The notes under the pieces: generated by a model
What the model was told of the DNA's origin: nothing
What the model saw: the letters and a program-made list of their open reading frames with translations, nothing else
The model's database searches: none
Made by a program: the position numbers and the translations under genes
Part shown: positions 4,991 to 26,703 of the stretch, one piece after another
Position numbering within the stretch: position 1 is the stretch's first letter
Layout: each line of letters begins with the position of its first letter
NCBI GenBank assembly: GCA_016176555.1
Contig: JACOWY010000023.1
Location: 1-35,562, forward strand
DNA: 35,562 nt
Reading direction: 5' to 3'
Source: Candidatus Chisholmbacteria bacterium
GTDB taxonomy: Bacteria; Patescibacteriota; Microgenomatia; UBA1400; JACOWY01

Positions 4991-7051
4991 ATGGTCACTA
5001 ATCGTTTGACTTTCGAGGATCTCGAAAAGCCTGTCGCCTCCTTACCTCTCATCGGCCCGGCCACCGCCAAACGCTTAGAAAAAATCAATATCTTCACCAT
5101 CGCAGATCTCCTCCTCCACCCACCCCACCGTTATCATGACTTTAGCCACATTGTTACCATCGCCACAGCAAAAGTAGGGGACACAGTTACTATCCAAGGC
5201 GAGATCACCAAAAGTCTTATGCTGCCGACTCGCAGTCGCGTTACTCTCCAAAAATTCACCTTCACCGACACTACCGGCTCCATTGACATCACCTACTTCA
5301 ATCAGCCCTACTTACTCTCTACCCTCAGGCGGGGGACTGAGGTCAGCCTCGCCGGAGTCATCGAAAGCCATCGCGGTAAAGTAGGTTTAGTTTCTCCTGA
5401 ATATGAAATCATCAAACCCAACCAACCCCTCCTCCACACCGGCCGCCTCATCCCCCAGTACCCTGAAACCAAAGGCGTCAGCTCTAAATGGTTAAGATCC
5501 CGTCTTGCCCCTTTACTTTCCCTGCTTCCTTCAATCGATCCTTTACCCGAAACCCTGCGCCAAAAACACGAGCTTATTCCTTGGAAAGAAGCTTTAAGCT
5601 CCCTCCATTACCCCCAAAATGAGTCCCAAGCCCTAAAAGCCCGGGCCCGCTTAGCCTTCGATGAGCTAATATTTTTACACCTCAAAAGTCTCCTCCTCAA
5701 AAAAAGGTGGCAGCGTCGCCCAGCCACCACCGCATTGCCTCTCACTGACACAGAGGTGAGTCTGTTTGTAAAATCCTTACCCTTCACCCTTACCTCTGCC
5801 CAACACCGGGTCATCGAGGAAATCCGCCACGATCTGTCCCGAGTCATCCCCATGAATCGGCTGCTGGAAGGCGACGTCGGCTCTGGCAAAACAGTCATTG
5901 CTGCGTTCAGCCTTTTTGCCGCCCTCCGCCACCAAAAGCTTGGGGTCATCATGGCCCCCACTCAAATTTTGGCCCACCAACACGCCCAAACCCTCAAAGA
6001 AATCCTTAAACCCTTCGGCGCTCGCATAGCCAGCGTCACTTCTGGCTCAAAACTAAAAGTTTACCCTGAGCGAAGTCGAAGGGCTAATATTCTCGTCGGC
6101 ACCCACGCCCTACTCCATCGTCAACTTCTATTGCAACGCGCCGCCGTCACCATCGTTGATGAACAACACCGCTTTGGGGTAGCCCAGCGCGCCGCTTTAA
6201 AAAACCTCAAATCCACCCCCCACCAACTCACCATGACTGCCACTCCCATCCCCCGCACCGTGGCTCTCACCCTTTACGGCAATCTCGATCTCTCCTTTCT
6301 CGATGAGTCGCCACCCGGAAAGCGTCTCCCTAAAACCTGGGTAGTGCCTCGCTTCAAACGCCCCAACGCCTACCACTGGATAGAAGATCGAGTCCTCAAG
6401 CACCACGACCAAGTGTTTATCGTTTGTCCCCTGATTGAATCGTCAACTAAAGAATCTATGCTCCAAATCAAGGCAGCCACCGCCGAATTCCAAAATCTTA
6501 AAAAGATTTTTCCGCAGCTCTCTCTTGACCTTTTGCACGGCCGTCTCAAGGCAAAAGAGAAAACCGCCATCATTCACCGTTTTTCCCGTGGTTTAACCCA
6601 CATCCTCGTCACCACTCCAGTGGTCGAAGTCGGCCTCGATATTCCTGCTGCTTCTATCATGCTCATCGAAGCCGCCGAGCGCTTTGGCCTGGCGAGCTTA
6701 CATCAGCTCCGTGGCCGCATCGGCCGGCGCAACCAAGATAGCTTTTGTCTTCTTTTCCCGAGTGACTCCGCTCCTCCCACCACCCATCGCTTAAAGCTCC
6801 TCGAAACCGAAACCTCGGGCATGAAACTGGCCGAAGCTGACCTCAAACTAAGAGGCCCCGGAGAGCTCTATGGCACCAGCCAGAGTGGCTTTTTTAGCCT
6901 GAAAATTGCAGCGCTCTCTAACACCCCACTAATTAAACTCACCAAAACGGCAGCAGAAAAACTCCTTCACCACAGTCCCTCGCTCACCAAATACCCGCTG
7001 CTCAAACAAAAACTCAACGTGTTGCTTGACCAAGCTGTCGTCCCCAACTAG
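4991..7051 (+). CDS. recG: ATP-dependent DNA helicase RecG
   Basis: LLEGDVGSGKTVIA Walker A, VDEQHRFGVAQR, TMTATPIPRTVALT, LHQLRGRIGRRNQDSFCLL. Confidence 0.95.
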   Translation: MVTNRLTFEDLEKPVASLPLIGPATAKRLEKINIFTIADLLLHPPHRYHDFSHIVTIATAKVGDTVTIQGEITKSLMLPTRSRVTLQKFTFTDTTGSIDITYFNQPYLLSTLRRGTEVSLAGVIESHRGKVGLVSPEYEIIKPNQPLLHTGRLIPQYPETKGVSSKWLRSRLAPLLSLLPSIDPLPETLRQKHELIPWKEALSSLHYPQNESQALKARARLAFDELIFLHLKSLLLKKRWQRRPATTALPLTDTEVSLFVKSLPFTLTSAQHRVIEEIRHDLSRVIPMNRLLEGDVGSGKTVIAAFSLFAALRHQKLGVIMAPTQILAHQHAQTLKEILKPFGARIASVTSGSKLKVYPERSRRANILVGTHALLHRQLLLQRAAVTIVDEQHRFGVAQRAALKNLKSTPHQLTMTATPIPRTVALTLYGNLDLSFLDESPPGKRLPKTWVVPRFKRPNAYHWIEDRVLKHHDQVFIVCPLIESSTKESMLQIKAATAEFQNLKKIFPQLSLDLLHGRLKAKEKTAIIHRFSRGLTHILVTTPVVEVGLDIPAASIMLIEAAERFGLASLHQLRGRIGRRNQDSFCLLFPSDSAPPTTHRLKLLETETSGMKLAEADLKLRGPGELYGTSQSGFFSLKIAALSNTPLIKLTKTAAEKLLHHSPSLTKYPLLKQKLNVLLDQAVVPN

Positions 7052-22059: not shown

Positions 22060-24105
<2,046 letters not shown>

Positions 24106-24168: not shown

Positions 24169-24320
24169 AATAGTTGCTCGGCTAGAGCCATCCCGCTCAG
24201 CGGGATACTCAAACTCGCTACCTTAGATATATAAAAACAGAGCTTGCTGAGCCATCCCGCTCAGCGGAACATTCAACTCGCCACATTACCCTATGATAAA
24301 AGACAACGCTAGCTATCATC

Positions 24321-25985
24321 ATGAAAGAACCATTTAACCCTGGCTGGCAAGGAATACCTGACCCTGAACCAGAACAAAAGAAAGACATCCTCATCGAGAT
24401 CGGCACCTCTTTATATCCACTTTCACCACAAACTCAAAAATACGTCGGTCTAGCAACGAAATCAGAGTATGAACACAACTCTTCGGTACTAATAATTAAC
24501 GAACCACACTTTGACGTTACGGGCCAATTCGCTGTCTATAAACTTCTAGAAACATTCTTCACCGAAACCCCCCAACTCGTCTCAGAGACCACCTTTTTGG
24601 CTGAAGGCCTTCCAGTAAATCAGACTCTCTCGCTAGCTCCCTTAGTCGATGCTATCCCCAATCCAGACGAAGATACAATCTGGGAAGTTCTTTCAACGTT
24701 CTTAATCCCCGGCTATGCAGCTTATGCCTGGAAATTCAATCCCCATCTTCCAATAGTAGGAACGGAAGATCCTAGTTTGTATCAACTCTCTAGAGACATG
24801 TGGGCCAACATGCCAGCAAACCCGAGTGCTCAAGAGTTGGCACTGTGGAACGTTAGTGTTGCAGCGAGAAACAGGCAAATAGCAAAAACATTAATAGAAC
24901 ACACCCAAAGGCTTCAAAATCCCATCCTTTTTATAGGTGACGCCCATCTTTTAGGACTGTCGAAAGTCGTCGGCCGACAAGATGCAAAAATGCCCTTGGA
25001 TATATATGACTTCCTAAAAGAAGAAAAAGTGGGCCACACGTTTCTAAGCACAACATCATCTAAACGCAGAACGAGACAGAATGTCGAAACATACAGACGC
25101 CTGATGCTTGCCCAGCAAAGTGGAAAATATGAAGACTATATCTCACTGATGCTTACAGGCGAACGTGAAACTACCGTCACTCCCTCTCCCGAAAACGCCG
25201 CAGAATATTTGAAACTCATCTTAGGAAAACGCCAAGGTTCTCCAGGGGAAACACACCCAAGCCCATCAAAGGCATTCTCCCTCCAACGGGAAAACAGATT
25301 TATCGATGCAGCCCAAGAATACTCTGCGCTAAGCGCAACTAAACCAGGCGTTCCTGGTTACATAATCTCTGTCCAAGAATCCCTTTTAAGGGATGTAACA
25401 TCTAAAATCCTCAGAGCAAAAAAGGGGCCTGGGTCAAAACAAGGCCCACCAGAACCTAATCTGCCCCTGTTTGGGCCACGAATCGCCAAGGATCACTATC
25501 ATCGAGTGTCACAATTTGCGACCCAGTTTTCTAAAACTCCCGGCCACCAAGAAACAATCAATAACGCTATGTCTCCTCAATGGGAAACCAGATATGGTGG
25601 TGCACTTGTCATTGCTGCGGCCGAAGAAATCGGCCAAGCAAGAATTAGGGCCTTTGAAGCAAGGCATACTCTACCCAATGGTCGCATCAACAGGGTAGAT
25701 ATCGCTACTACCAACAATATTGCTGTAGAGTGCAAAAATGCTGCAAGTTGGGTTCCTCGAAGCAGGATCAATAAATGGGTCGAGCAAGCTATCACCCGAC
25801 TGAAACAAAGTCGAGAAAATTACCACTATTCCGCCACGGTGATCGTTGTACCACAACAACAGAATGCGGAAAAAATTCAAACCGAGGTAGACACTTACTT
25901 ACGGTTGAAACATCCTCACCTCTTGCGTAAAATAAGGGTGTGCCGAGTAAATGAGCTGAACCAATTGCTCAGGCAATATAGATAA
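24321..25985 (+). CDS. Putative two-domain protein: TIKI/ChaN/EreA-like N-terminus and PD-(D/E)XK-like nuclease C-terminus
   Basis: SSVLIINEPHFDVTGQFAVYKLLETFF...FLAEG...ARNRQIAKTLIEHTQRLQNPILFIGDAHLLGL; C-terminal GRINRVDIATTNNIAVECKNAASW (D-x(n)-ExK pattern). Confidence 0.55.
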   Translation: MKEPFNPGWQGIPDPEPEQKKDILIEIGTSLYPLSPQTQKYVGLATKSEYEHNSSVLIINEPHFDVTGQFAVYKLLETFFTETPQLVSETTFLAEGLPVNQTLSLAPLVDAIPNPDEDTIWEVLSTFLIPGYAAYAWKFNPHLPIVGTEDPSLYQLSRDMWANMPANPSAQELALWNVSVAARNRQIAKTLIEHTQRLQNPILFIGDAHLLGLSKVVGRQDAKMPLDIYDFLKEEKVGHTFLSTTSSKRRTRQNVETYRRLMLAQQSGKYEDYISLMLTGERETTVTPSPENAAEYLKLILGKRQGSPGETHPSPSKAFSLQRENRFIDAAQEYSALSATKPGVPGYIISVQESLLRDVTSKILRAKKGPGSKQGPPEPNLPLFGPRIAKDHYHRVSQFATQFSKTPGHQETINNAMSPQWETRYGGALVIAAAEEIGQARIRAFEARHTLPNGRINRVDIATTNNIAVECKNAASWVPRSRINKWVEQAITRLKQSRENYHYSATVIVVPQQQNAEKIQTEVDTYLRLKHPHLLRKIRVCRVNELNQLLRQYR

Positions 25986-26001: not shown

Positions 26002-26703
26002 ATGTACGACTACGCATTTACGTTCTACAAACCAAACAAAACGTTTTTTGAACCTGGAGAATTAACACGAACTGTTAGCTTTCTTCAAAGAGACGGCTAC
26101 GAAGTCGAATTCCGATCACCTCCACTAGCAACAACTAAAGAAGGCCAACCCCTCTTTAGGCCGAAAGAGGAAGAAATAGGAGCAATTATAAGAAAGGGGG
26201 GGGTGGAGCTTAATCTTTTTGCTAGTGCTGCCGAGGGCCCGATGGGGGCAATAGCTGACTTATCTATCACAGAAGACGACTTGAAAGAGTCAGTTACCCA
26301 AAATACCTCACTGTTAACCCAAGCCGCCATGATCGTTTTCAAAGGCCTACAACCCCTTTTTGCTTGGGGAGACCACGAATTAGAGCTGGATAAACTGCAA
26401 CCATTCTTGAGCTTCGATAAAATAGGCGCCCTAGCCTGGGCTAACCTTTTCAGCCAAGAGCTCACCGAACATCTAGGGGGAATAGACCAAGTCTTACTCC
26501 ATCCAACATGGCAGAAAGAGCAAAAACAAGCAAAGCTTACCCTAGGTGCACTTTCTTTAGTTTTGATAACACTCTCACCATCTCCAGCGGACCCTGTCCA
26601 CGCCACTACTGCACTGCAATGTGACCGGAGATACCCCGGGGCCATTATTAAATCTTTCCAAACCCTTTCCCTAGCGGAGGCAAGAAATATTGTTAATGAA
26701 TAA
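26002..26703 (+). CDS. Hypothetical protein (233 aa), likely co-transcribed with upstream nuclease-like gene
   Basis: Starts 16 nt after the upstream stop; no family recognised; hydrophobic stretch near C-terminus. Confidence 0.6.
   Translation: MYDYAFTFYKPNKTFFEPGELTRTVSFLQRDGYEVEFRSPPLATTKEGQPLFRPKEEEIGAIIRKGGVELNLFASAAEGPMGAIADLSITEDDLKESVTQNTSLLTQAAMIVFKGLQPLFAWGDHELELDKLQPFLSFDKIGALAWANLFSQELTEHLGGIDQVLLHPTWQKEQKQAKLTLGALSLVLITLSPSPADPVHATTALQCDRRYPGAIIKSFQTLSLAEARNIVNE

Follow-up and report, generated by a model that had tools for sequence, protein, structure and literature searches.

What would a gene that joins a TIKI/ChaN-like domain to a PD-(D/E)XK-like nuclease do in a bacterium of the candidate phyla radiation (CPR)? 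The question is raised by a 554-aa fusion protein encoded at 24321-25985 (+) in a 35,562-nt stretch of Candidatus Chisholmbacteria DNA (contig JACOWY010000023.1, C66 among our contigs), the whole of which is referred to here as the window and which belongs to a 1.0-Mb draft genome. CPR bacteria mostly live attached to other cells and, to our knowledge, little is known of their weapons and defences. The TIKI-related family includes the Wnt-cleaving Tiki proteins, the erythromycin esterases and ChaN. On balance, we favour an explanation in which the fusion gene and the gene directly downstream are a horizontally acquired nuclease toxin and its cognate immunity gene, the TIKI domain being an exchangeable N-terminal module. 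If correct, this would add a TIKI-led nuclease toxin with an immunity gene to the architectures that we found described, and would extend TsiV-like immunity beyond secretion-system effectors, in a two-gene system that is directly testable.

Two halves of one protein

The fusion gene is a single intact open reading frame (ORF) with an ATG start, 554 codons and no internal stops, at exactly the position reported in an initial annotation of this DNA, and all motifs quoted in that annotation occur in its product. The predicted architecture comprises a TIKI/ChaN-like domain (residues ~20-250), a helical linker (~250-375) and a PD-(D/E)XK-like nuclease domain (~376-554). In the TIKI/ChaN/Ere-like domain (residues 20-250; 24378..25070, +), the motifs are INEPH (E61, H63), FLAEG (E95), AARNRQIAKTLIEH (R183, N184) and FIGDAHLLGL (H209), with E61, H63, E95 and H209 as candidate catalytic residues. 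The catalytic set of the TIKI superfamily consists of two Glu and two His, arranged as ExH, a Glu 28 residues on and a His 100 further (PMC6254334); in the fusion protein, E61-x-H63 is followed by E95 32 residues on and by H209 114 further. This 2Glu/2His set is present in both the window protein and a relative, G670, which retains the equivalents of all four residues and of R183 and N184 at 41-45% identity, more than half of the positions being different. The GExH-like start proposed initially reads NEPH in the window and GEPH at the same site in G670.

Residues 20-250 were modelled with AlphaFold2 from two sequences only, those of the window and G670, and the resulting model, of moderate confidence (pLDDT 61, pTM 0.64), was searched against 350,542 PDB chains. 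ChaN (2g5g) ranked first (probability 0.95, E 2.6e-3) and HopBA1 (5t09) second (probability 0.75, E 0.028), while the Ere-type BcR135 structures (2rad, 2qgm) were found at ranks 14 and 36; ChaN, HopBA1 and BcR135 are all named as TIKI-superfamily structures in PMC6254334. In this moderate-confidence model, residues 20-250 are predicted to contain the parallel-sheet alpha/beta core of the superfamily. Alignment of the TIKI half with eight TraB/GumN proteins by hhalign gave P=0.0012 (probability 19.5%), an alignment in which the RN and H motifs line up, compared with P=0.46 and 0.41 for unrelated controls. The TIKI half had no Pfam TIKI-type match (PF01963, PF04187, PF05139) even at E=10, PF04187 and PF01963 had no match anywhere in the window's genome, and whole-protein searches of Pfam, NCBIfam, PADLOC, PHROGs and PDB sequences assigned no family to the TIKI part. 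A fold search against viral structures returned nothing, and matches of two-row profiles to dynein and THAP11 were rejected as chance. No single score is overwhelming; it is the agreement of independent routes that supports the TIKI assignment. The initial annotation had proposed a TIKI/ChaN-like N-terminal half, with structure prediction as a check of the fold, and the proposal is upheld by the conserved 2Glu/2His set and by ChaN and HopBA1 as the top two PDB matches. Since the active-site residues are intact, the TIKI domain would be expected to be catalytic.

The nuclease domain (residues 376-554; 25446..25982, +) is marked by E435, D460, E470-x-K472 and Q489, of which D460, E470 and K472 lie within NGRINRVDIATTNNIAVECKN. 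All five residues are kept in a second relative, G462, at 44% identity over residues 376-549, and a pattern of E, D, ExK and Q is tabulated for REase-fold toxin domains in a polymorphic toxin survey (PMC3482391). The D...(D/E)xK signature of the PD-(D/E)XK fold, with a helix-1 Glu and a helix-2 Gln, is found in both the window and G462. A single-sequence model places strands at 459-463 and 465-471, a helix at 480-496 and a strand at 505-510 (pLDDT 58-90 from residue 471 on), and this order, strand-strand(ECK)-helix-strand, is as expected for PD-(D/E)XK; the full fusion protein folded from its single sequence reached a pLDDT of 38 and was poor outside the nuclease core. Weak profile matches were obtained to phrog_244 (E=3.4e-4), which groups RusA-like Holliday junction resolvases, pPIWI_RE_REase (E=0.021) and PDDEXK_15 (E=0.053), and Avs4, DUF4297(-HerA), XPF and Hef were among the leading entries of a fold list that lacked significance (E>0.3). 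The hhalign comparison with Mrr brought D and ExK into register at only P=0.05, Pfam gave neither a VRR-NUC nor a PAAR match, and a match to NapC was rejected as chance. The C-terminal domain is very likely a PD-(D/E)XK nuclease, the support for which is consistent, if weaker than that for the TIKI half. This accords with the initial annotation, given the conserved catalytic pattern, the fitting model order and weak matches that were repeatedly to PD-(D/E)XK proteins. Because the catalytic residues are kept in relatives of such low identity (only 41-45% and 44%), the motifs of the fusion protein go beyond chance.

The partner gene, the relatives and the site of insertion

The gene for a 233-aa putative immunity protein of TsiV/DUF3396-like type (26002..26703, +) begins 16 bp downstream of the fusion gene and is intact in the window. 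Its sole Pfam match is TsiV (PF11876, 'Type VI immunity for VRR-NUC') at E=0.027. A partner gene 43% identical to it follows the G462 nuclease gene after a few bases, and its sole Pfam match is also TsiV, in the same profile region (E=0.019); in PADLOC, the G462 partner matched BrxB at E=0.028. TsiV is an immunity family of PD-(D/E)XK effectors, and TsiV/DUF3396 proteins cover the DNA-binding site of these effectors and so neutralise them (PMC9635880). Mainly because a TsiV-like gene is linked to the nuclease in two genomes, the pair is probably a toxin with its immunity protein. Neither the partner gene nor the position of the insert between gyrB and hppA featured in the initial annotation.

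Relatives of the fusion protein are rare. The tblastn searches covered 88 further genomes, almost all from the window's order, 379 genomes sampled across the phylum and 374 sampled across the class; the first two samples yielded no homolog and the third yielded G462 and G670, bringing the total to three known loci in >800 genomes. Scans of genome contigs matched a single record, that of G670 (Ca. Woesebacteria DeMMO2_52, JAGVFE010000016.1), a profile built from the two TIKI sequences retrieved no further relative from the class, and collections of plasmids, phages and viral contigs contained none. Weak class and phylum matches (E 0.01-0.1) were judged chance, the sole one inspected (L005) lying in an unrelated 901-aa ORF.

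The two relatives preserve different parts of the protein. G462, which is in the class and outside the window's order, encodes the linker and nuclease together with the partner, and no TIKI domain; its N-terminus is short and unrelated, with ~150 bp upstream to the neighbouring gene. A linker segment (residues ~307-364; 25239..25412, +), TPR-like by eye, is 37% conserved in this relative. One frame change occurs between the G462 linker and nuclease, within L012:10409-10430, because of which this copy may be decaying; a programmed frameshift was considered and not adopted. Two ORFs resembling LAGLIDADG homing endonucleases (L012:5846-7085) are found on the contig that carries the G462 nuclease-immunity pair. 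The TIKI part of G670 is matched at 46% identity over residues 22-215, and more weakly to 312, in a protein that is cut by the contig end. Sequence past its TIKI part is unlike the window nuclease, and no homologous nuclease is detectable before the contig end; the last residues, RGHDFET (L013:1-110, -), bear some likeness to the opening helix of a restriction-type nuclease, and a different nuclease domain may begin there. The two halves occur apart, the nuclease without TIKI in G462 and TIKI without a homologous nuclease in G670, indicating from these alignments that TIKI is probably an exchangeable N-terminal module.

The gene pair interrupts a conserved arrangement. Relatives in the order that have hppA carry gyrB, hppA and gyrA in succession, usually <200 bp apart, whereas in the window 2.6 kb containing exactly the fusion gene and its partner separate gyrB (22138..24105, +) from hppA, which encodes an H+-pyrophosphatase (PF03030; 26723..28717, +). 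G+C content at third codon positions (GC3) is 0.407 and 0.415 in the pair compared with 0.52-0.62 for most other genes measured. Insertion into the gyrB-hppA-gyrA trio, low GC3 and the lack of a homolog in the 88 order-level relatives together point to horizontal acquisition of the pair.

Further features were observed at and beyond the junction. A relative, G026, has another insert of ~950 bp with small unrelated ORFs at the same gyrB-hppA junction (L038:517-1470), a site that may thus receive inserts repeatedly. The 23 bp that end gyrB (24083-24105) recur with 91% identity 129 bp further downstream, at 24212-24234, between gyrB and the fusion gene, and next to this copy lies a 28-nt direct repeat (24185, 24249); the repeats may have been left by an insertion event and were rejected as element ends, as they fail to bracket the gene pair. 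Elsewhere in the window, a radical SAM gene (PF04055; 31487-33046, -) has the lowest GC3 measured, 0.383, and may be acquired too. In a RecG-like ORF (4991-7051, +), the stretch VYPERSRRA looks like a small repeat element translated in frame, and similar strings, ALSEAEG and LRSGQA, occur in ORFs of L013.

What the gene pair may do

We infer toxicity, its neutralisation, activation or delivery and the role of TIKI as follows. The 554-aa protein would be a toxin whose C-terminal PD-(D/E)XK domain cuts nucleic acid via D460, E470 and K472, and in the producing cell the 233-aa partner would bind and inhibit this domain, just as the VRR-Nuc effector TseV3 is blocked by TsiV3. With its 2Glu/2His site intact, the TIKI domain would most likely be a hydrolase or peptidase, which may free the nuclease from a carrier or attack a second target. 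The arrangement that defines polymorphic toxins, a C-terminal toxin with an adjacent immunity gene and an exchangeable N-terminus, is visible in the sequence, from three loci only, and no trafficking domain or secretion route was recognised in the fusion protein. The initial annotation had suggested a defence or inter-bacterial effector protein; the TsiV-like partner is consistent with this suggestion.

Several observations weigh against a toxin and its immunity protein. Just three loci are known, that of G670 being cut by a contig end and that of G462 being frame-changed. The nuclease has no family match above threshold, and the G462 nuclease fails to match the weak families matched by that of the window. 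Both TsiV matches lie below the Pfam cut-off (14.3 bits in the window and 14.8 in G462, versus 25), and formal TsiV membership therefore fails. The fusion protein has no recognised signal peptide, transmembrane segment or known secretion trunk domain, the partner has no leader or transmembrane segment, no secretion gene adjoins the pair and no type VI secretion system (T6SS) gene was recognised in the window.

Two versions of the toxin-immunity explanation differ in where the nuclease would act. In the first, a tenable possibility, the pair is an intracellular toxin-antitoxin or abortive-infection module, in which the downstream protein holds the fusion inactive in the cytosol, TIKI senses or processes a signal such as phage infection, and the nuclease kills or arrests its own cell. 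The absence of leaders and transmembrane segments from both proteins, the two same-strand genes with their 16-bp gap and the faint likeness that the nuclease bears to nucleases of defence systems (pPIWI_RE_REase, with Avs4 and DUF4297-HerA topping the non-significant fold list) are consistent with such a module. However, no protein has a significant PADLOC family, the pPIWI_RE_REase and BrxB matches being the only ones, the partner looks like an immunity protein against a secreted effector rather than a known antitoxin, and the N-terminal module differs or is missing in G462. The second version, which we hold more tentatively, is a contact-dependent effector that is sent to other bacteria, TIKI being its exported N-terminal module, perhaps via the type IV secretion system (T4SS) of Patescibacteria, which is widespread in that group and homologous to monoderm conjugation machinery (PMC12102498). 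Resemblance of the partner to TsiV argues for export, as does the exchange of N-termini, which follows polymorphic-toxin logic as set out in PMC3482391; the lack of a recognised export signal and of secretion genes nearby argues against it. An intracellular role and export are about equally likely, and both shares are contained within that of the toxin-immunity explanation. A bolder extension of that explanation, which we consider rather doubtful, is a family of TIKI-led toxins restricted to CPR bacteria of the Microgenomatia type; its shared N-terminal trunk, a catalytic TIKI domain, would carry varied C-terminal toxins with matched immunity genes, for use by epibionts against hosts, competitors or phages.

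Location between housekeeping genes, and the frequency of PD-(D/E)XK folds in DNA repair, would also suit a metabolic or repair protein in which two enzyme domains happen to be joined, the downstream gene encoding an ordinary subunit and neither having a role in conflict. This is unlikely in view of the extreme rarity of the protein, the deviating GC3, the insertion into a conserved trio, the frame change in one copy and the immunity-like partner. That the pair is a decaying, non-functional remnant, as the frame change in G462 might suggest, is highly improbable for a window copy with an uninterrupted frame of 554 codons, every catalytic residue in place and an intact partner.

Comparison with known systems

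The open literature searched contained no description of a TIKI-nuclease fusion and no paper linking TIKI with polymorphic toxins, in line with the initial remark that no standard family is known to have this architecture. We could not find a description of TIKI, nuclease and immunity-like partner in combination; the combination appears to be a variant of toxin-immunity systems. The toxin-immunity pair that we favour shares features with four groups of proteins. It resembles ChaN (2g5g) and the TIKI/TraB/Ere proteins in the best PDB match of its predicted fold and in the order of ExH, E and H, and TraB/GumN in an 'RN...GxxHL' segment, but its TIKI part has no Pfam match at any E-value, a compact E95-R183 spacing and a fused nuclease. 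As in the TseV/TsiV VRR-Nuc effectors of the T6SS (PMC9635880), a C-terminal PD-(D/E)XK nuclease is followed by a DUF3396/TsiV-like gene; in contrast to these, the window protein has TIKI in place of a PAAR-like domain or VgrG, its nuclease has no match to the VRR-NUC model, the TsiV match is below cut-off and the host is a CPR bacterium. Polymorphic toxins of the Tox-REase type (PMC3482391) have in common with the pair the E, D, ExK and Q residues, a C-terminal toxin with an adjacent immunity gene and an exchangeable N-terminus, whereas the window fusion lacks a recognised trafficking domain, and the available text of that survey makes no mention of TIKI, EreA or DUF3396. RRSP, a TIKI-superfamily endopeptidase (PMC6254334), differs in being one effector domain within a very large toxin that acts on eukaryotic cells and in having neither nuclease nor immunity gene, but it possesses the same 2His/2Glu set as the fusion protein, in the same order and with similar spacing.
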